Assembly (NCBI GenBank): GCA_026645735.1
Contig: JAPKMT010000005.1
Location: 1-64,000, forward strand
Length of the DNA: 64,000 nucleotides
Direction: 5' to 3'
Source of the DNA: Flexilinea sp.
GTDB lineage: Bacteria; Chloroflexota; Anaerolineae; Anaerolineales; Anaerolineaceae
Shown here piece by piece: positions 298-60,528 of the stretch. The notes under the pieces were generated by a model that saw nothing but the letters and a program-made list of their open reading frames with translations, had not been told where the DNA came from and made no database searches. The position numbers and the translations under genes were made by a program. How positions within the stretch are numbered: position 1 is the stretch's first letter; every line of letters begins with the position of its first letter.

Positions 298-1167
298 ATG
301 TTACTCAACATGAAAGATCTGTTGAAAGTTGCAAATGACCACAATTTTGCTGTTCCGGCATTTAATATCGGAACCGGGCAAATACTCAAAGCAGTTCTCG
401 AAACCTGTGAGGAATTGCGCGCTCCGGTTATCCTGGCAATTCACCCGTCAGAACTTGAATTTCAGGGTGATTCCTTTCTGGAAAGCGTCAAGTCAGCAGC
501 GAATCATGCCACGATTCCGGTCACTATTCATCTGGACCACGGATCCACGCTGGAGCAGGTTTATCGTGCCATCCGCACCGGATTCACTTCGGTAATGATC
601 GATGCTTCACACTATTGCTTTGAGGATAATGTTGCCATTTCCAAAAAGGTGGCTGAGATCGCGCATCCTCTGGGGATTTCTGTAGAAGCAGAACTTGGAA
701 CGATCGGAACCTGCGGCAATGACACAGAAGGTGGTACCGGAGAGATCATATATACCAGACCGGATGACGCAGTAAAATTCGTCCAGGAAACCGGAATCGA
801 TTGTCTGGCAATTGCAATCGGTACAGCGCATGGAATTTATCCGAAAGGTTTCAAACCGGAACTGAAGCTGGATCTTCTCAGTGAAATCAAGTCAAAAGTA
901 AGCATCCCGTTGGTGCTCCACGGCGGCTCCGCCAATCCGGATGATGAAATTGCGGAAAGCGTCAAACGCGGCATTAATAAAATCAACATCTCCTCAGATA
1001 TCAAGGATGCCTTCTATCAACAGCTTCGGAAAACACTTTCTGCAGACCCGAAGGTTCGAGAACCATTTGAGCTCTATCAGGACAGCATCAAAGTCATGAA
1101 AGAAGTTGTCATCCATAAAATCAAACTGTTTGACGATGCGGACAAAGCCAAATTCTATTCTTTATAG
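298..1167 (+). CDS. class II fructose-bisphosphate (ketose-bisphosphate) aldolase
   Basis: This 289-residue protein has the zinc-dependent class II aldolase signatures: HLDHG near residue 78, EAELGTIG with following Gly/Asn residues near 130, AIGTAHG near 175, VLHGGS near 203 and INISSD near 226. Together these supply the zinc-binding histidines and the phosphate-binding Gly/Ser/Asn residues. The family cleaves ketose bisphosphates (fructose-1,6- or tagatose-1,6-bisphosphate) to dihydroxyacetone phosphate and an aldehyde. The start is an ATG 8 bases after GGGAGG, a strong ribosome site. The next gene, 80 bp downstream, is a sugar-phosphate-isomerase-like cupin, so this copy may serve a specific sugar catabolic route and not central glycolysis. 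The exact substrate cannot be told from sequence. Confidence 0.9.
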   Translation: MLLNMKDLLKVANDHNFAVPAFNIGTGQILKAVLETCEELRAPVILAIHPSELEFQGDSFLESVKSAANHATIPVTIHLDHGSTLEQVYRAIRTGFTSVMIDASHYCFEDNVAISKKVAEIAHPLGISVEAELGTIGTCGNDTEGGTGEIIYTRPDDAVKFVQETGIDCLAIAIGTAHGIYPKGFKPELKLDLLSEIKSKVSIPLVLHGGSANPDDEIAESVKRGINKINISSDIKDAFYQQLRKTLSADPKVREPFELYQDSIKVMKEVVIHKIKLFDDADKAKFYSL

Positions 1168-1247
1168 AGATTTACTAATTTTTGAAAACTGTCCCAAAAT
1201 TTGAAAATGCATCACAATTACCAAAACAGGAAAAAGGAGGATTGATC

Positions 1248-2450
1248 ATGAGTAAAGGAAAGATACGTGAAACATTTCAAAATGGAAATGGAGTGCTGCA
1301 TCTCACTCCAACCTGGGTACCAAGAGGCTTTAATGAACCCGGTCGCAGAATTCGATTACACCCGGATGATTATTTTGCCTTTGGGATGGATCGCGGAGGT
1401 ATCAGCGAACGCTGGCTCGGATCGGTGACAGTTGCTTTGAACGGTCCGAAAACCGGACCAACAGAAGGCATGAGTTTTGTACTTACCGATGAATCCGGGA
1501 TTGAAAAAATTCTGTTTGCCGATGTTGTTGAAGAACTTGGCGCAGACGTGATTGGTAAGGATTTGTTCGATCGTTATGGCACCTGGCCTACATTTGCCAA
1601 GCTTTATGACTATGATAAGCCATTATTCCATCATCTGCATTTGACAGAAGAAAAAGCAAATAAAATCGGACGCCACGGAAAACCGGAAGCATATTATTTC
1701 CCGGTTCAATACAATGCCTACCTGGGGCGTTTCCCGCTGACCTATTTTGGATTTGATCCGTCCGTGACCAAAGAAGAAGTCATCAACTGCATCCGCAACT
1801 ACGATAAATTCGATACCCGGATCACAGAGTTATCACGAGCCTATCGCGTCAAACTGGGAACCGGTTGGTACACACCGGCAGGAGTCATCCATGCACCGGC
1901 TTCTGTGGTTACTTACGAACCGCAATGGAACAGCGATGTGAATACGATTATGGAAAATGTCACCATGGGTGAAATCAATCCGCATAATCTGCTCACAGAC
2001 TGCCAGCCGGAATCCGAAAAAGACAACATTGAAAGTCTCTTTGCACAAATCGACTGGGAAGAGAGCACCCGCCCGGATTACAAACAAAAATACTTCCGCC
2101 CGCCCAAGTCCTTAACGGAAAAACAAAGAGGCATGAGCGAAAAATGGGTTGCCTACGCCAATGAGTGGATCGCGGCGAAAGAAGTTACGGTATTGCCCGG
2201 TGCTTCGGTTACACTGCATGATCAGGCGTGCTATTGCGCACTGGTCGTCCAGGGACACGGTCGATTTGGCGCTTTTGAATGTGAAGCGCCCGGTCTCCTG
2301 CGATACAACCAAATTTCCGGCGATGAATTTTTCGTTTCGGACGAGGCTGCAAAGAAAGGCATCGAGATCAAAAATACTGGCAGCTACGAACCGTTGGTCA
2401 TCCTGCAGAATTTTGCCAACAACAACCCGGAAGTGCCGGCTGTAGTTTAG
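1248..2450 (+). CDS. phosphomannose-isomerase-like cupin protein
   Basis: A 400-residue protein resembling class I mannose-6-phosphate isomerases and related double-cupin proteins. HHLHLTEEKANKIG followed by GKPEAYY (about residues 130-150) corresponds to the metal-binding region of the family. GTGWYTPAGVIHAP (about 203-216) matches the conserved loop of phosphomannose isomerases. I start at the ATG at 1248 because AAAAAGGAGG lies 7 bases upstream; a longer reading from an upstream TTG lacks such a site. It probably forms a two-gene unit with the aldolase and may isomerise a sugar or sugar phosphate feeding it. The substrate is uncertain because the protein is unusual overall. Confidence 0.7.
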   Translation: MSKGKIRETFQNGNGVLHLTPTWVPRGFNEPGRRIRLHPDDYFAFGMDRGGISERWLGSVTVALNGPKTGPTEGMSFVLTDESGIEKILFADVVEELGADVIGKDLFDRYGTWPTFAKLYDYDKPLFHHLHLTEEKANKIGRHGKPEAYYFPVQYNAYLGRFPLTYFGFDPSVTKEEVINCIRNYDKFDTRITELSRAYRVKLGTGWYTPAGVIHAPASVVTYEPQWNSDVNTIMENVTMGEINPHNLLTDCQPESEKDNIESLFAQIDWEESTRPDYKQKYFRPPKSLTEKQRGMSEKWVAYANEWIAAKEVTVLPGASVTLHDQACYCALVVQGHGRFGAFECEAPGLLRYNQISGDEFFVSDEAAKKGIEIKNTGSYEPLVILQNFANNNPEVPAVV

Positions 2451-2566: not shown

Positions 2567-3295
2567 TTAATTTCGCGCTGATGATAATTTACGGATATCG
2601 GCTCGATCATCAAGAATTTGGGTTAACTTTCCATCTTTCATAATCAGAACGCGATCAACAAATTCACACATTCTCAAATCATGCGTGACCATGATCCCGG
2701 CTCGATTCTGTTCATGAATCAACCCCGCAAAGGTTTCCACAACCTGATAGGCGCGTTCCGTGTCCAGACTGGCAGTCGGTTCATCGGCCAACACCAGGCT
2801 GGGATTGTGGATCAGAGCGCGGGCAATCGCAACGCGCTGCTGTTGTCCGCCGGACATTTGGCCAGGGTAGTTATTCAATCGTTCACCCAAGCCAAGACGC
2901 GCCAGCAATTCCCGTGCCCGCAATTTTCCGGCTTTATCCAGCTTGTTGTTCAAGCGCAACATCAACTCAACATTTTCCACCGCGCTGAGATAAGGTACCA
3001 AATTGTTGGCCTGAAAAGTGAAACCAATTTTCTCTCTGCGCAGGTTGACCCGCTTGAAATCATCCAGACCTGAGAGATCGACCCCGTCGATCAGCACTTG
3101 TCCGGAAGTTGGTTTCAATAACGCGGCAAGAATGGACAACATGGTGGTTTTTCCGGAACCGCTGGGACCGACGAGGGCGACAAATTCACCGGAAGCCACA
3201 GTGAGTGACACATCATCCACTGCGGATATCAGACCTGAATCGCTTTGATAAGTTTTAATAACCGATTTTGTTTCAAGTGCATTCATTGTTGTCAT
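2567..3295 (-). CDS. ABC transporter ATP-binding protein (LolD/MacB type)
   Basis: This 242-residue ATPase has Walker [10 protein letters not shown] (about 42-50), signature [15 protein letters not shown] (about 145-159), Walker [13 protein letters not shown] (about 166-177) and the switch histidine VTHD (about 203). The close spacing and the FtsX-like permease just upstream place it in the MacB/LolD/DevA export family, which drives efflux or lipoprotein/peptide handling and not import. It is the last gene of a minus-strand operon (regulator, peroxiredoxin-like, permease, ATPase). M1 and M4 are both possible starts. The cargo is unknown. Confidence 0.9.
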
Positions 3296-3308
3296 CTTAA
3301 GATCCCTG

Positions 3309-4478
3309 TTATGAAGATAATCCCAAAGCTTTTAGCGGTTCAATTCGCACAGCATATCGAATGGATACCAAACCGCCCAGAGGTCCAATCAGTAATAGTG
3401 CAATGATTGCAATAGCTGTCGTTGTACCATTGAAGACAATCGGTACCTGCGGTGGAAAAGATAATGAGAATAAAAAGGTCAGTCCGGTACCAATCGCTAC
3501 CCCAATGATTGTGATCATCGTAATCTGAATAATGGATGCCCATGCAACAACCGAATTTGCTGATCCGATCGCTTTCAAGACACCGATTTGCGAAATTTTC
3601 TGTAATACCTGGATTTGGAAGAACCCACCGATCACCAGGATACCGATGAACAAAGTAAATCCGCCCTGTGTATTCAAAGTGCTCTGCTGTGCGGAATAGC
3701 CTGGCAACGCCTGGATCGCTTCTTTCCGGGTTGCAGTCTCAACATTTGCGATTTCTTCTTCGATTCTGTCACGGATTATTTCAACATTTTCCGGTTGATC
3801 CACTTTGACAATGAAAACATTTGCGACAGGATCTGAAAAATTGATCTCAGCCTGTGATTTCGGTCGAATACGATCCCAGGTAAAAAATGGAACGAACAGC
3901 GCTGGCTGCAACGCATACTGCTGACCATCCGTAATACCGACTACCTTCAGCGTGAAAATTTGATCTTCAGTACCTTGTGTTACCCGGATGGTGATGGTAT
4001 CGCCAAGCTGAATACTGCTTCGAAGAATTACATTTCGATCCAGAATGACTTCATCCGCATCAGCAGCACTTAATTGGCTGCCTTCGATAACTTTTGGTTC
4101 GCCCACATGCCCCGGTTCAACTCCCAGCAAGGCGGTTTTTAGAAATTTATCGTCACCGGACAATAATAATTGACTGTTTGCCGTTCCCAATAATCCGACA
4201 TCAGAGATTCCCTCTACGTTTTTAATCTCGGAATAACGATTCAGATCCAATCGACTGGCAGGAATCAAAAAATCTGATTTTGCCTGATATACAACCAGTT
4301 CACCTGCAAGTTTTGAAAGATATTCCCGGTTTCCATTTCCTAATCCTTCACCCAGCGCAGCAATAAACAAAACCAGAAGTGTGATTAAACCAATCACCAG
4401 ACTGACCAATAAAAAGCGACCGCGAAATTTCCAAATTTCTTTTACTGCCAGATAAGCAGCAATGGATATTTTTTTCAT
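3309..4478 (-). CDS. FtsX-like ABC transporter permease
   Basis: A 389-residue membrane protein with one N-terminal transmembrane segment (about 20-42), a large extracytoplasmic MacB-like periplasmic core domain (about 50-265) and three C-terminal transmembrane segments (about 275-385). This is the FtsX/DevC permease plan. CAGGAG precedes the ATG. It lies 5 bp from the upstream peroxiredoxin-like gene and 13 bp from the ATPase gene, so it is the membrane partner of that ATPase. The repeated MG/Gly motifs of drug-specific permeases are absent, so I do not assign a substrate. Confidence 0.88.
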   Translation of the reverse strand: MKKISIAAYLAVKEIWKFRGRFLLVSLVIGLITLLVLFIAALGEGLGNGNREYLSKLAGELVVYQAKSDFLIPASRLDLNRYSEIKNVEGISDVGLLGTANSQLLLSGDDKFLKTALLGVEPGHVGEPKVIEGSQLSAADADEVILDRNVILRSSIQLGDTITIRVTQGTEDQIFTLKVVGITDGQQYALQPALFVPFFTWDRIRPKSQAEINFSDPVANVFIVKVDQPENVEIIRDRIEEEIANVETATRKEAIQALPGYSAQQSTLNTQGGFTLFIGILVIGGFFQIQVLQKISQIGVLKAIGSANSVVAWASIIQITMITIIGVAIGTGLTFLFSLSFPPQVPIVFNGTTTAIAIIALLLIGPLGGLVSIRYAVRIEPLKALGLSS

Positions 4479-29159: not shown

Positions 29160-29210
29160 AAAGAAAGCGTATTTTCCTGAAGATTTTTACAGGAAAATAC
29201 GCTTTCTTTC
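29160..29210. terminator. terminator of the metY-metA operon
   Basis: A perfect 20-bp stem (AAAGAAAGCGTATTTTCCTG and its complement) with a 10-base loop, about 47 bp after the metA stop codon. T tracts flank both ends. Confidence 0.9.
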
Positions 29211-29256: not shown

Positions 29257-30174
29257 TTAATGGATTGCTGTTATATCATAAGGAGTTTGCTGATAGACAT
29301 AATAATTCAGCCAGTTGCTAAAAAGTAAATTGGCATGACTGCGCCAATACATCATGGGAACAGCCTTTGGACTGTTGCCCGGGAAATAATTATCCGGGAT
29401 TTCCGGATGAAGCCCAAGTTTTTCATCTCGCTCATATTCTTTCGCCAGCGTCAGGCGGTCGTATTCAGTATGGCCTTGAATAAAGAATTGTCTTCCGTCT
29501 TTGCTGGCAGAGATCGCAACGCCGGCAATATCCGAAATTGCCAATAGTTCCAAATCACGGCAGTTTTCGATATCCGACTGACGGACTTCTGTATATCGGG
29601 AATGTGGCATATAAAATATCTCATCGAATCCTCGCATCAGAGGGTGGTTGTTTACTACGGGACGATGTGTGTAAATTCCAGATATTTTCGTATCACGGGG
29701 ATATTTATTTATTCCATAATGATGATAGAGAGCAGCCTGCGCGCCCCAACAAATATGCAGCGTTGAATAAACATTGGTTCGGGACCAATCCATCAATGTA
29801 CAGAGTTCTTCCCAATAATCGACATCTTCAAAAGCCAGGTTTTCAACCGGAGCACCTGTAATAATGAATCCGTCATATTTGTTACTTCGAACCTGTTTAA
29901 ATCCTTTATAAAAAAGCTTCAGATATTCTGGAGATGTATTTTTTGAAACATGCGTTACAGCCTGAAGAAATTCGATATCGACTTGCAGCGGTGTGTTACT
30001 CAACAATCGCAGAAGTTGCACTTCGGTTTCCATTTTCGTTGGCATTAAATTCAGTATTAAAATTTTCAGCGGCCGAATATCCTGATGGATTGCCCGCTGG
30101 CCATTCATCACAAAAATATTTTCATTCTCCAGCCTCTCAGCTGCCGGATGGTTATCAGGAATCGTTATAGGCAT
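29257..30174 (-). CDS. metA: homoserine O-acetyltransferase (MetA type)
   Basis: A 305-residue MetA-family acyltransferase of the class I glutamine-amidotransferase-like fold. The catalytic nucleophile is C142 (HICWGAQ) and the other triad residues are H235 and E237 (QGHTEYD). Residue 111, which decides acyl donor in this family, is glutamate (GAPVE111), the acetyl-CoA type; succinyl-CoA enzymes have glycine there. O-acetylhomoserine is the substrate of the MetY enzyme encoded just upstream, so the two genes form a two-step path to homocysteine by direct sulfhydrylation. Both are under the same attenuator-like leader. Confidence 0.92.
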
Positions 30175-30219: not shown

Positions 30220-31500
30220 TTAAAATGCCTGTTCCAAATCTGCGAGCAAATCATCGATGTGTTCTGTTCCGATGGAAAGACGGATGGTGTTCGGCTGAAT
30301 ACCCTGTTCCAGCAATTCGGATTCATTCAACTGGGAATGGGTAGTACTTGCAGGATGGATCACAAGACTTTTTAAATCTGCAACGTTTGCCAGCAGAGAA
30401 AATATTTTCAGACGATCAATAAACGACATAGCTTCTTCAGCGCCACCGCGGATATTGAACGTAAAGATGGAAGCCCCGCCTTTTGGAAAATAACGCTGAT
30501 AAAGCTTATGGTTGGGATGTGCTTCCAACGACGGATGATTGACACTTTCGACTTTGGGATGAGTTTTGAGATAATTCACAATTTTCAGTGCATTTTCAAC
30601 GTGTCGCTCCACACGTAAACTCAGTGTCTCCAAACCCTGCAGAAAAATAAAAGCATGGACTGGGGCAATCGCTGCTCCGGTATCTCGAAGAATAATCGCA
30701 CGCGCCTTGGTAATATATGCCAAAGAACCGGCTGCTTTTGTAAAACTGAGTCCATGATAGCTGGGATTTGGTTCGGTTAATGATGGGAATTTACCGCTTT
30801 CCTCCCAATCGAACTTACCACTATCTATGATGACTCCCCCAATGGCAGTGCCATGACCACCGATAAATTTCGTCGCAGAGTGAACAACGATGTCGGCTCC
30901 AAGTTCAATCGGACGAAGAAGATATGGTGTCGCAAAAGTGTTGTCGACGATCAACGGGATTTTGTGTAAATGAGCAATTTTTGCCGTCTTTTCAATATCA
31001 ATAAGCGTAGCATTTGGATTTCCGATCGTTTCTACAAAAATTGCTTTCGTGTTTGCGTTAATGGCTTTTTCAAAACTTCCTTCTTCATCCGCATTAACAA
31101 ATGAGGTTTTAATCCCGTAATCCGGCAGTGTATTGGCAAGCAAATTATATGTCCCGCCATAAATTGTTTTTGCTGAGACGATGTGATCTCCAGCTTTACA
31201 GATATTCAAAAAAGCATAATAGACGGCCGCAGCGCCGGATGCAACAGCCAACGCTCCGACACCGCCTTCAAGCGCTGCAATCCGTTTTTCAAAAATTTCC
31301 TGCGTCGTGTTGGTTAATCGGCCGTAAATGTTGCCAGGTTCTGAAAGGCTGAATCTTGCTGCAGCCTGAGCGGTATTTTTAAAGACATAGGATGTGGTTT
31401 GGTAGATCGGCACTGTACGTGCATCGGACGCCGGGTCTGGTTCCTCCTGACCAATGTGCAGCTGTTTTGTTTCAAATTTCCATTCATTCAATGCGGCCAT
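30220..31500 (-). CDS. metY: O-acetylhomoserine sulfhydrylase
   Basis: A 426-residue PLP enzyme of the Cys/Met gamma family. The PLP lysine is in SATKFIGGHGTAIGG (K about 206). The family motifs NIYGRLTNTT (about 57-66) and VDNTFATPYLLRPIELGADIVVHS are present. It makes homocysteine from O-acetylhomoserine and sulfide. I start at the ATG at 31500, 5 bases after GAGGAAAA; an open reading upstream crosses the leader terminator region and is not the start. It is the first gene of metY-metA, behind a 276-base leader. Confidence 0.93.
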   Translation of the reverse strand: MAALNEWKFETKQLHIGQEEPDPASDARTVPIYQTTSYVFKNTAQAAARFSLSEPGNIYGRLTNTTQEIFEKRIAALEGGVGALAVASGAAAVYYAFLNICKAGDHIVSAKTIYGGTYNLLANTLPDYGIKTSFVNADEEGSFEKAINANTKAIFVETIGNPNATLIDIEKTAKIAHLHKIPLIVDNTFATPYLLRPIELGADIVVHSATKFIGGHGTAIGGVIIDSGKFDWEESGKFPSLTEPNPSYHGLSFTKAAGSLAYITKARAIILRDTGAAIAPVHAFIFLQGLETLSLRVERHVENALKIVNYLKTHPKVESVNHPSLEAHPNHKLYQRYFPKGGASIFTFNIRGGAEEAMSFIDRLKIFSLLANVADLKSLVIHPASTTHSQLNESELLEQGIQPNTIRLSIGTEHIDDLLADLEQAF

Positions 31501-31552: not shown

Positions 31553-31595
31553 GGCAAAAAAAAACAGAATCCTTCTTTTTTGGAGGATTCCGTTC
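31553..31595 (-). terminator. attenuator terminator in the metY leader
   Basis: On the minus strand GGAATCCTCC (31591-31582, segment 3) is followed by GAAGGATTC (31575-31567, segment 4) and nine T residues (31564-31556). The GAATCC(T)/GGATTC pairing gives an intrinsic terminator 55 bp upstream of metY. Its left arm also pairs perfectly with the upstream GGAGGATTCC (31650-31641). Confidence 0.85.
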
Positions 31596-31625
31596 ATTGA
31601 ATAATACCATCTATCCCATCTTAAC

Positions 31626-31736
31626 AGGTAATTTCAGAATGGAATCCTCCCGCGCATATCCATAGGCAGTGATACCATCATTTTCTTTTGAAAATCATTC
31701 AAGAATAAATGACTTGGAAACATTCCAGAATTACCT
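31626..31736 (-). promoter_or_regulatory. attenuator segments 1 and 2 of the metY leader
   Basis: Segment 1 (AGGTAATT at 31736-31729 plus TGGAAT just after) lies in codons 2-8 of the leader peptide. It can pair with ATTCCA and AATTACCT (31626-31633) around the leader stop codon, which would sequester segment 2. Segment 2 (GGAGGATTCC, 31650-31641, leader codons 31-34) pairs perfectly over 10 bp with segment 3 of the terminator. A ribosome paused at Met codons 21-22 leaves segment 2 free (antitermination). One that reaches the stop codon covers it (termination). Confidence 0.75.
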
Positions 31737-31741
31737 TTCAT
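31634..31741 (-). CDS. methionine-rich leader peptide of metY-metA
   Basis: A 35-codon reading frame too short for routine gene calling. It begins with ATG at 31741 and ends with TGA at 31636-31634. Beyond the start codon it has Met at positions 7, 21, 22, 27 and 29, five in 34 residues against roughly one expected. Codons 20-29 read K-M-M-V-S-L-P-M-D-M. A modest ribosome site (TAAGG) lies about 10 bases upstream. The transcription start is predicted near 31776, so the peptide is near the 5' end of the message. The frame contains attenuator segments 1 and 2. By analogy with trp, his and leu leaders, scarcity of charged Met-tRNA would stall the ribosome here and allow readthrough into metY. 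Confidence 0.75.
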   Translation of the reverse strand: MKGNSGMFPSHLFLNDFQKKMMVSLPMDMRGRIPF

Positions 31742-31783
31742 TTGTGTCGAACCTTAGTTGTCCAGACTTTAACCGATATAAGG

Positions 31784-31811
31784 ATTATATAAGACAGCTT
31801 CCCATTGTCAA
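31784..31811 (-). promoter_or_regulatory. metY-metA promoter
   Basis: TTGACA (31811-31806) and TATAAT (31789-31784), both perfect sigma-70 consensus, are 16 bp apart on the minus strand. Transcription should start near 31776, giving a leader of about 276 bases. Confidence 0.85.
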
Positions 31812-34273: not shown

Positions 34274-35947
34274 TCAGTCGTGAAGACCGATTATAACTGC
34301 GTAGGAGACGGGTTCATTTTCAGACCTGATTTCAATGAGATAATCTTGCGTGACGGGAACTTCGATGCTCCAATCAACGGGAAAATCCATCGAATCCTGA
34401 TAATTAATGCCTGTTTCAATACCGATGATACGGAACCATGAATTCCGATTTTCACGATTCTCCAGATGGAAAATTAGTTGTTGTCCGACTTCTGCTGAAA
34501 CCAGAAATCTTCTGCTGGTATTTGGTAATATCGTCCCCGTCATGAAACCCAATTTTGTTTTTTCATCGATGTGGATCGCTGCCGGAAGTCTTTTTAAAGT
34601 ATCTTCTTCATATTTGGAAATCGGTTGCATCAAAATTTTTTGAACATCCGAAAGTCCTGGTTCGATTGCAATACCAGACTCGGAATTTTGCGGGGTTATT
34701 GAAATCCTTTCAATTTCAATATGCGCCGTAGAAGTCGCTGGTTGCAAAATCATCGGGAAAATTTCTGCCGTAGGAAGTTCCGTTTCTTTCAGATCATAAA
34801 TTCCAGATTCAATTTTAACTTCCGGTTTAATGGGTGTGGTCTGAATGATCGGTATGGGTGTATTGGTAACAACAAATGAACTGATTTGGTAAGTCTGAGG
34901 TGTTGTTTCAATTTCAATAACCGGGATTGGTGTCTCAGTACCATATGCCCTTGCTGTGGGTTGTGGCAATTGCACTGGAAGGGTATTATCGAAGTTAACT
35001 GCCGCATCTGCATCGTGTGGGGATTCAGTGGAGAACATGATCCATTCTGCTATCAATAAAGTTGCTGTTGGTTTGATCGGAGCTGCAGTCTGAGTGGGAA
35101 TTATCATTCTCGTCAGTTCAATCGTCGCAATGTCGGTAAAAGGTACTGTTGCAGTTGGCACAACGGGTACAGCAGTATCCGAAGGAGCCATTGTGGCTGC
35201 AGCTTTCAGTATTACAGCAGTTTGTGTTGGAAGCATCGTTCCCGTCGGTTCAATCGTTGCAGTGTCTGTAAGAGATATTGTTGCCGTTGGCTCAACGGGT
35301 ATTGCAGTATTCGAAGGAGTCATCGTAGCTGCAGCTTTCAGTATTGCAGCAGTTTGTGTAGGAAGCATCGTTCCCGTCGGTTCAATCGACGCAGTGTCTG
35401 TAAAAGATATTGTTGCCGTTGGCTCGACGGGTATTGCAGTATTCGAAGGAGCCATTGTGGCTGCAGCTTTCAGTATTGCAGCAGTTTGTGTTGGAAGCGT
35501 TGTTCCCGTCGGTTCAATCGTTGCAGTGTCAATAATGGCAACTGTCGCTGTTGAATTCATTAGAATATCTGTTTCAGTGGATGATGGTATAAAAGGGATA
35601 TCCATCAATACTTCAGTATTTTTCGGATCAGAAACCGAAGGAACCGTTACCGGCGAAGATGTAACGGATAGGAAACTTTTTTCAGGAGTCAAAAGAAACG
35701 TACTGGTTTCTGCGATTACTGGCCAGGTATCAGTTTTGGCGTCCACAGACAGTTCTGTTTTCTCAGCAATTTCTGCCATCAATGTTGCTTTGGTTACAGA
35801 ATTCGAGACTGCCTGCTCAACAGAATTGATTACACGCTCCCAACCTGAAGACACGGTCTCCTGTAACACACTGCTTGAACAAGCAGATAAAAAACAAATA
35901 CCGATCAGCAGAGAAAAAAATGACAACTTCTTCGCAAATTTTTTCAT
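34274..35947 (-). CDS. lipoprotein with Thr/Pro tandem repeats and a PPC-like C-terminal domain
   Basis: A 557-residue lipoprotein (lipobox LSAC, cysteine about 22). A long Thr/Ala/Pro-rich region follows, with at least three near-identical 44-residue repeats (EPTGT..PTQTA.ILKAAATM and .P.EPTATI.) encoded at about 35130-35530. The C-terminal 100 residues (about 455-557) form a beta domain related to the neighbouring secreted protein. The repeats would act as a stalk across the wall. I use the ATG at 35947, 9 bases after AGGTGG; the one two codons upstream is also possible. Repeat number is likely to vary between strains. The opposite-strand open frame here is a by-product of the repeats. Confidence 0.8.
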   Translation of the reverse strand: MKKFAKKLSFFSLLIGICFLSACSSSVLQETVSSGWERVINSVEQAVSNSVTKATLMAEIAEKTELSVDAKTDTWPVIAETSTFLLTPEKSFLSVTSSPVTVPSVSDPKNTEVLMDIPFIPSSTETDILMNSTATVAIIDTATIEPTGTTLPTQTAAILKAAATMAPSNTAIPVEPTATISFTDTASIEPTGTMLPTQTAAILKAAATMTPSNTAIPVEPTATISLTDTATIEPTGTMLPTQTAVILKAAATMAPSDTAVPVVPTATVPFTDIATIELTRMIIPTQTAAPIKPTATLLIAEWIMFSTESPHDADAAVNFDNTLPVQLPQPTARAYGTETPIPVIEIETTPQTYQISSFVVTNTPIPIIQTTPIKPEVKIESGIYDLKETELPTAEIFPMILQPATSTAHIEIERISITPQNSESGIAIEPGLSDVQKILMQPISKYEEDTLKRLPAAIHIDEKTKLGFMTGTILPNTSRRFLVSAEVGQQLIFHLENRENRNSWFRIIGIETGINYQDSMDFPVDWSIEVPVTQDYLIEIRSENEPVSYAVIIGLHD

Positions 35948-36065
35948 TTCCATAAACCACCTCACATGAATGGTATTTCAGATTGCAGGGAGGATTATTT
36001 CACTCTTTATTTGACATACCAGCCTAAATTTCAAATTACAGCTTTCGGACAATATGGACAGAAAT

Positions 36066-46832: not shown

Positions 46833-46905
46833 AGCCAACAAGGAGGATCGAACTCCTGACCTGACGTTTACGAAACGCCTGCTCTACCAACTGAGCTATG
46901 TTGGC
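46833..46905 (-). tRNA. tRNA-Thr (anticodon CGT)
   Basis: A 73-nt cloverleaf on the minus strand: acceptor GCCAACA/TGTTGGC, D arm GCTC-AGTTGGTA-GAGC, anticodon stem GGCGT/ACGTC with loop TTCGTAA (anticodon CGT, reading ACG) and T arm with GTTCGATCC. The 3' CCA is not encoded and must be added after transcription, fitting the CCA-type enzyme at 61218. Confidence 0.95.
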
Positions 46906-60119: not shown

Positions 60120-60510
60120 CAGGTTAATCAGATGATCGCGGTGTGGCGTGTTCGCACCGAGGAAAGTCCGCACTCCTTAGAGCAAGATGCCGGATAACGT
60201 CCGGGGCGGGGAAACTTGCCGGAAAAGGGCCACAGAAAACAGACCGCCTCATGAAAATGAAGCAAGGGTGAAAAGGTGGTGTAAGAGACTACCGGCGTTA
60301 GTGGTAACACTGCGGCCGGGCAACCCCCATCTGGAGCAAGGCCAAGCAGGAGCAAAGCATATCGCGTATGTGCGGGGATCTGCTCGATCCCCTCGAAGCT
60401 CCGGGTAGGCTGCTAGAGTCGTACGGTAACGTGCGTCCCAGAGAAATGGTCATCTAAGCGGGAGAACTCGAGGTCTCCTCTGAACAGAATGCGGCTTATA
60501 GATTAACCTG
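60120..60510 (+). ncRNA. rnpB: RNase P RNA (type A)
   Basis: The ends AGGTTAATC and GATTAACCT pair as stem P1. Conserved core motifs are present in order: GAGGAAAGTCCGCACTC, ACAGAAAACAGACCGCC, AAGGGTGAAAAGGTG, AGAGAAATGGTCA and ACAGAATGCGGCTTATA. The RNA is the catalytic subunit that removes 5' leaders from pre-tRNAs. A run of T residues right after P1 acts as terminator. Open frames in this interval are by-products. Confidence 0.97.
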
Positions 60511-60528
60511 ATTTTTTTCTTTTTTTCA
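60511..60528 (+). terminator. rnpB T-tract terminator
   Basis: ATTTTTTTCTTTTTTTC directly follows the closing P1 stem of rnpB. Confidence 0.7.

Follow-up and report, generated by a model that had tools for sequence, protein, structure and literature searches.

A probable ribosome-mediated methionine attenuator before metY-metA in Flexilinea, with comparable leaders before methionine operons of the Anaerolineaceae

The leader that precedes the metY-metA operon in the window (the whole stretch of 64,000 nucleotides analysed here) very probably controls transcription by ribosome-mediated attenuation of the trp type, with methionine supply as the signal sensed. In enteric attenuators of this type, codons for the cognate amino acid lie in a first RNA segment, the stop codon of the leader lies over a second, and the pairing of segments 2 and 3 competes with that of segments 3 and 4. 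The window leader contains a frame with the cognate codons, a terminator before the first gene and an antiterminator that shares the 5' arm of the terminator; these parts, their overlap and their recurrence before metY, metA and metN operons of relatives are established by sequence and comparison. Methionine genes are the usual targets of SAM riboswitches, methionine T-boxes and repressors, and the present results make a comparative case for a full terminator/antiterminator methionine attenuator that is used as a regulon and is stacked on SAM-I riboswitches in relatives. The parts of the locus, as read from its sequence, are as follows.

31784..31811, minus strand: sigma-70 type promoter, TTGACA-16-TATAAT, 12 of 12 consensus positions
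31734..31738, minus strand: probable Shine-Dalgarno sequence AAAGG, for a leader frame starting at Met7
31634..31741, minus strand: 35-codon leader frame MKGNSGMFPSHLFLNDFQKKMMVSLPMDMRGRIPF, ending in a stop codon, with Met at 7, 21, 22, 27 and 29
31723-31634, minus strand: probable translated part of the leader, 29 codons with four non-start Met
31676..31681, minus strand: Met21-Met22 codons, proposed stall site
31661-31663, minus strand: Met27 codon
31655-31657, minus strand: Met29 codon
31671..31679, minus strand: segment 1, GATGGTATC, overlapping Met21-22; predicted partner GATTCCATT (31646-31638), forming an anti-antiterminator
31641..31650, minus strand: segment 2, GGAGGATTCC, ending 4 nt before the leader stop codon
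31634..31636, minus strand: leader stop codon TGA
31582..31591, minus strand: segment 3, GGAATCCTCC, with segment 2 (antiterminator) or segment 4 (terminator) as alternative partners
31594-31563, minus strand: intrinsic terminator hairpin ACGGAATCCT..AGGATTCTGT, -13.2 kcal/mol, then nine T at 31564-31556
30220..31500, minus strand: metY (O-acetylhomoserine sulfhydrylase family), which heads the operon
29257..30174, minus strand: metA, homoserine O-acetyltransferase
29161..29208, minus strand: hairpin and T-rich tail 3' of metA, likely operon end

A first-pass annotation of this DNA had proposed the consensus promoter, the intrinsic terminator with nine T before metY, a perfect 10 bp pairing of segments 2 and 3, and the identities of metY and metA, all of which were borne out. 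The promoter matches at 31811-31784 and the terminator at 31594-31556 (it was missed by a simple terminator scan and listed by a second terminator script), GGAGGATTCC is the exact complement over 10 bp of GGAATCCTCC, which lies within the 5' arm of the terminator, and the two proteins score above the cut-offs of the profile models TIGR01326 (MetY) and NF047918 (MetA, acetyl type). The 35-codon frame that it described is likewise present, with its five Met codons and its stop, but its start required revision. In L110, the locus of the nearest relative (MetY 93% identical), both promoter hexamers and their spacing are kept and the leader frame aligns without gaps, with four of four Met codons identical and with four synonymous and four nonsynonymous codon changes. 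Because the ATG of Met1 is ACG in L110, whereas the frame from Met7 onward is kept without indels, Met7 is the likelier start; translation probably begins there (31723), with AAAGG 10 nt upstream and GGAAGG as its counterpart at the same place in L110. The helices AGGTAATT/AATTACCT and TGGAAT/ATTCCA, which had been assigned to the 1:2 pairing, do exist, but the best candidate anti-antiterminator is GATGGTATC/GATTCCATT, with Met21-22 in its 5' arm as in trp, and the AGGTAATT/AATTACCT helix is predicted to mask the leader's own Shine-Dalgarno sequence.

From this arrangement we infer that the leader is translated, that ribosomes stall within it and that the operon responds to methionine. RNA polymerase starting at the promoter (31811-31784) would transcribe the short Met-codon-rich frame, and when charged elongator Met-tRNA is short, a ribosome would stall at Met21-22 (or Met27), covering segment 1 and leaving segment 2 free to pair with segment 3; the terminator would then not form and metY-metA would be transcribed. 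With Met-tRNA plentiful, the ribosome would reach the stop codon and cover segment 2, segments 3 and 4 would pair, and transcription would end at the nine T; if the leader were not translated, segments 1 and 2 would pair and termination would again be favoured. The design is the same as in the enteric attenuators, whereas the amino acid sensed is different and is here also that of the initiator. Because methionine starts every protein, starvation should also reduce initiation on the leader, which counts against this reading, and it is a puzzle how the leader would be initiated while the starting amino acid of translation is running out.

When the 230 nt preceding the window leader terminator were dinucleotide-shuffled 1000 times, an ORF with at least five non-start Met codons ending 15-100 nt before the terminator arose in about 0.7% (P=0.007), and none of 20 other terminators in the window reaches five such codons, one of them having four. 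The 2:3 duplex (-21.6 kcal/mol) was also unusual relative to shuffles (P=0.002), and the fold of the whole leader was weakly so (z -1.58). In a pool of 331 other terminators, drawn from the window and all loci fetched by then, 12 follow an ORF with at least four non-start Met codons and four follow one with at least five. Such a background could favour the view that the leader has no regulatory meaning and is a short peptide gene followed by a terminator with a fixed rate of readthrough, as could the lack of a leader at some orthologous operons of the genus. However, no fewer than three of the 12 (L227, L040 and L128) proved to be Met/Cys leaders in front of met or cys genes; these are three of the four with at least five Met codons, the fourth being L234 (five Met), which is discounted as a leader because its ORF looks like the tail of a gene lying upstream, one that we take to be GroEL-like. 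The same layout also stands before three kinds of methionine operon, which is unexpected by chance, and we regard the absence of regulation as highly improbable. Across the 31 leaders with a detected terminator, the shuffle P for Met content ranges from 0.001 to 0.25; because this set was picked after Met-rich frames had been seen, the unselected counts by a fixed script weigh more.

These counts come from the window genome (G000) and 13 congeners, the script counting non-start Met codons in an ORF that ends 15-100 nt before a terminator. Two of the congeners match, over the stretches compared, Leptolinea sp. UBA1437 (L029, the same as L111) and UBA5366 (L033, which includes a piece of L112), Leptolinea being placed in the Anaerolineaceae of the Chloroflexota. 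At the metY loci of the genus at least two Met codons were found in 12/16 and at least three in 9/16, the paralogue L133 (46% identical) being retained among the 16. The corresponding values were 0/11 and 0/11 for ilvB, used as a control, and 1/13 and 0/13 for metY of other genera in the order. By inspection, 13 of the 16 have a Met- or Met/Cys-rich leader frame; L119, in which the script detected no terminator, is counted through inspection only, and at L004 and L114 the script scored ORFs other than the assigned leader frames. Nine of the 13 are mainly Met (e.g., L113 MNNSKTFAKQTQYVSIAMPMGMCMCMAMMNAMKLRGSMFIS, L135 MRNTVVSMMMNMNMCAMMMCMSFAVPV, and L112 MRNKMMPMPGMVKRGDLA), and the four Cys/Met leaders (L115, L116, L117, and L119) belong to metY loci with cysK next. 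No leader was found at L118, L134, and L133, and these loci count against the attenuator reading, as do five metN loci and three of five solo metA loci described below.

The Met-rich leader, its stop codon and the terminator recur before metY, metA and metN operons, and the conservation in relatives by which the first-pass annotation had proposed to check its reading was found. Between the stop codon and the terminator stem there are 19-39 nt in 24 of the 31 leaders, all 22 from the genus among them, and 68-92 nt in the remaining seven, all from outside it. Leaders before different genes have no evident common sequence; what recurs is the Met codons, the position of the stop and the layout. 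In 18 pairwise comparisons, Met codons were kept at 59/85 positions vs. 222/364 for other residues, a difference that is not significant (P=0.17).

The window genome has a second Met leader, MKNLLMMGYGMLMCGRREGRWSFTYLRSNSSY followed by a stop codon, before metNIQ; the permease of this operon scores above the cut-off of the MetI model, and its lipoprotein is MetQ/NlpA-like and below the MetQ cut-off. Leaders precede the metN operon at 8 of 13 loci of the genus, viz. in the window genome and seven congeners. In subclade A the fixed script found at least two Met codons in 8/8 loci and at least three in 7/8; in subclade B it scored 1/5, the one being L141 with a 4-Met ORF, which is taken as chance, leaving the five metN loci of this subclade without a leader. 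All eight metN leaders share the invariant stretches GGAATGTTGATG and CCGCC..GGGCGGT, and their peptides share G(Y/E)GMLM...GR. Over six sequences, 91.7% of cells are paired in the candidate antiterminator GAGCTTTACG/CGTGAGGCTC, and shifting the partners of the 16-pair metN structure by 1-3 columns reduced pairing from 93.8% to 38-52%; L146, whose leader duplicates that of L145, was left out of two of the analyses of leaders, and L149, with a misaligned terminator arm, out of one of these. Covariation of the competing helices, which had also been put forward as a check, is weak evidence in the metN leaders: among the 10 antiterminator pairs there is one both-side change, C-G to U-A in L148, and 76 of 500 control shuffles reached as much.

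The shared metN peptide motif, together with MPMDM(R/C) or a near form of it in some metY and metA leaders, would be expected if the nascent peptide arrested the ribosome from within the exit tunnel with methionine or SAM as cofactor. TnaC, a leader peptide that stalls the ribosome with tryptophan, is the model for such a device. The other leaders, however, have only Met/Cys runs in common, the CCGCC/GGGCGG hairpin contains the arginine codons conserved among the metN leaders and so provides an RNA reason for the motif, and arrest by excess methionine would give a logic opposite to the order of the hairpins. We therefore consider peptide arrest very unlikely and retain the attenuator that reads charged Met-tRNA. 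The metN leaders examined, together with L111, L112, and L114 of metY, start 6-10 nt behind a -10-like TAAACT or TACACT, the spacing in the metN leaders being 6-7 nt. As judged from these positions, ribosomes may translate both sets from transcripts with hardly any 5' UTR, and such near-leaderless starts may be a way for the metN leaders to keep initiating when Met-tRNA is short.

For metA, two of the five solo loci examined in the genus (those with no metY before) have a leader and three do not; L006, where the contig ends inside metY, and the partial matches L025 and L026/L028 were excluded. In the other genera of the family, 25 of 28 metA matches were examined (all except those of G152 and G096 and the second copy of G160), and 11 of the 25 have at least three Met codons by script, one of which (L234) is spurious. 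In five of these loci from two genera (L225, L237, L238, L241, and L243) a SAM-I riboswitch lies between the leader terminator and metA, and these appear from their sequences to be two-input tandem devices consisting of a Met leader and SAM-I; the other five are L011, L022, L230, L236, and L240.

At the window leader no Rfam family matches at gathering scores, and five sub-threshold matches look like chance; a SAM-I riboswitch at this position was rejected, there being no RF00162 match. The 31 genus loci scanned (20 and 11 further) likewise gave no riboswitch or T-box, their only matches being two tRNAs. SAM-I itself is present in 137/147 genomes of the family; among the 14 genus genomes, 12 have one, G012 has three and G001 has none, and the sole RF00162 match found in G000 precedes metK. 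A first scan covering metA/metY loci from other genera detected SAM-I in 12 of 17 such sources (two sources being the same site; its other three sources were genus loci without a match), and a second gave 14 of 20, to which L242 is added. SAM-I thus occupies the same genes and position in most tested loci of other genera, and it differs in being a ligand aptamer, absent at the window locus.

This distribution could favour an undescribed ligand riboswitch for SAM, methionine or homocysteine in the window leader, its reading frame being accidental, and the long invariant stretches of the metN leaders (GGAATGTTGATG, CCGCC, and GGGCGGT) could be taken in the same sense. Besides the lack of any Rfam riboswitch match at the window leader or the 31 genus loci, it is the in-frame Met codons, stop position and terminator, and no evident sequence, that leaders of different genes share, and the window leader frame is kept in L110. 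The most Cys-rich leaders, moreover, occur at the four metY-cysK loci, although Cys is also found in metY-metA leaders such as L137. A ligand riboswitch is accordingly given very little credence, and the ribosome attenuator remains preferred.

A T-box at the locus was also considered and rejected: the six T-box matches in G000 with E up to 0.001, of which two exceed the curated cut-off, all lie on contigs other than those of metY-metA (C55) and metNIQ (C43). In at least three genomes (G001, G004, and G009) ilvB has a T-box immediately upstream, and no Ile/Leu/Val-rich leader before a terminator was found at 11 ilvB loci. PF04715 (trpE, anthranilate synthase N-terminal) had no match in 14/14 genus genomes, from which the genus may be auxotrophic for tryptophan; these two results lent no support to a general habit of leader attenuation in the genus. 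The metE domain (PF01717) is present in 1/14 genus genomes, and a T-box match at G008:C243:3945-4216, which lies upstream of the sole full-strength metE domain found in the genus and in the same orientation, is possibly a methionine T-box.

Most Met leaders of relatives have an antiterminator candidate, the sequences being unrelated among leaders, and in 17/22 genus leaders the top-ranking segment 2 spans the final codons or the stop. For 17 representatives of our own choosing, the combined evidence for 2:3 pairing by Fisher's method is P=1.1e-5, six of the individual values being below 0.05 and nine above 0.15; the metN leaders among them are L143 (P=0.018) and L148 (P=0.164), and the metN leaders L149, L147, and L145, which were not chosen, gave P of 0.11-0.27. 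In full-length equilibrium folding with a masked ribosome, the terminator was kept at every ribosome position in most leaders, including that of the window (0.85-0.96), and because of this the attenuator model needs kinetic control. Four leaders depart from this in the way that the model predicts. In L110 the full-length terminator probability was 0.98 with the ribosome at the stop, 0.09 with it at the counterpart of Met22 and 0.00 at that of Met27; a similar drop was seen for at least one Met position in L114, L005, and L148, and in L137 and L236 there was little terminator even with the ribosome at the stop.

When transcripts were cut before segment 4, the pairing of the terminator 5' arm with upstream sequence had a median of means of 0.59 with the ribosome at Met/Cys codons vs. 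0.45 at the stop (P=6e-4 over 31 partly related leaders); the median with no ribosome, 0.45 over the 31 leaders, equals the stop value. In only 15/31 leaders did the best Met/Cys codon exceed the stop value by more than 0.2; both observations count against the attenuator reading, as does the behaviour of the window leader when free. In this leader, 2:3 pairing was 0.92 without a ribosome and likewise with one at Met21, 22 or 27, and it was 0.29 at Met29 and 0.52 at the stop (35-codon numbering). The predicted fold before segment 3 pairs GATGGTATC, with the Met21-22 codons, with GATTCCATT in both L109 and L110, yet when no ribosome is present, cut-transcript modelling of L109 favours 2:3. The metN leaders L147, L143, L144, and L150 behave in a trp-like manner (0.36-0.45 when free, 0.65-0.78 at Met11/Met13, and 0.37-0.48 at the stop); L145, L148, and L149 do not on cut transcripts.

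The first-pass annotation had considered a methionine attenuator of this kind possibly undescribed; this does not hold, as Met leader peptides have already been proposed for metBA of C. jejuni and metNIQ of S. lividans. According to the accessible text of the 2013 report, C. jejuni MetL is a peptide of 20 aa with three Met codons before metBA, for which a trp-type mechanism was proposed, and its authors found it in no species other than C. jejuni, C. coli, and C. doylei (Porcelli et al., PMC3847290). In 2025 ribosome profiling showed a signal of translation start at MetL, and another Met-rich sORF (MMYQMR) was reported before a D-methionine transporter gene (Froschauer, Svensson et al. 2025, PMC11955535). 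Like the window leader, MetL is a short Met-rich leader before methionine biosynthesis genes, and its RNA ends shortly behind the stop; unlike it, MetL belongs to another phylum, and the accessible portions of these reports describe no antiterminator or comparative structure, mixed Met/Cys leaders or SAM-I tandem. The metL of S. lividans TK24, proposed in 2021, is a Met/Cys leader before metNIQ with a leaderless start, to which the predicted starts of the metN leaders here, close behind a -10-like hexamer, are similar; in contrast to the window leader, its authors detected no typical Rho-independent terminator, and the available text concerns one strain without comparison (PMC8079986).

In the sections available, the ribosome attenuators of enteric bacteria are those of trp/his/leu/thr/ilv/phe (PMC1183508, PMC3766115), PMC2965389 names no Met leader, and for Actinobacteria Cys leader peptides are described before cys genes, with no conserved terminator and no Met RNA element (PMC1262725). 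The latter resemble the present leaders in having codons for the cognate sulfur amino acid, whereas the metY-cysK leaders L115, L116, and L117 have a terminator. The literature searched, mostly without subscription papers, yielded no Chloroflexota Met leader and no leader/SAM-I tandem. Attenuation by a Met leader is hence known as a proposal, and this lineage, regulon and tandem seem new. Overall, the ribosome-attenuator reading of the first-pass annotation is supported by recurrence in relatives and by the lack of an Rfam riboswitch or T-box, and its start, segment 1 and novelty have been amended.

For the family as a whole, the evidence tilts somewhat toward a sulfur amino acid regulon of the Anaerolineaceae controlled by ribosome attenuation. 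On this view SAM-I would have been retained at metK but displaced by Met leaders at the metY-metA, metA and metN operons, and Cys/Met leaders would act ahead of metY-cysK. In the two genera that have a Met leader and SAM-I in series before metA, transcription would depend on both low charged Met-tRNA and low SAM. In that case evolution would have swapped the signal sensed at the same genes, charged tRNA for SAM.

Similar leaders were observed beyond the genus. In L227, from another genus, a Met/Cys leader (..MMMCMCM..) and a terminator precede a cysK-like gene (2643-3593, minus strand) in a row that reads cysK-metA-metY, and in L128, from another family, ..MMMCMC.. and a terminator precede a cysK-like gene (432-1439, plus strand) in a row cysK-metY-metA, cysK being named in both by reading of the sequence; a search of another family of the order covered only two genomes. 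A Met/Cys-dense ORF was present in 4/79 scanned loci (L033, L036, L040, and L088), of which, besides the Chloroflexota L033, L040 alone has a terminator in view. In L040, a Bacillota MAG, MKQSVFSTAMNMCMCMMMCASGFCG... and a terminator lie before metY (2477), at about 2127-2293, with CGGGATTTT/AAAATCCCG as a possible antiterminator and no Rfam match in the leader region. Elsewhere in the window, positions 34274-35965 (minus strand) hold a 563-aa frame in which Thr/Pro-rich units recur (..TATIEPTGT.LPTQTAAILKAAATM..) behind a lipoprotein-like start. The two Rfam matches of the window, both away from the leader, are a tRNA at 46833-46905 (minus strand) and a bacterial class A RNase P RNA at 60120-60514 (plus strand).
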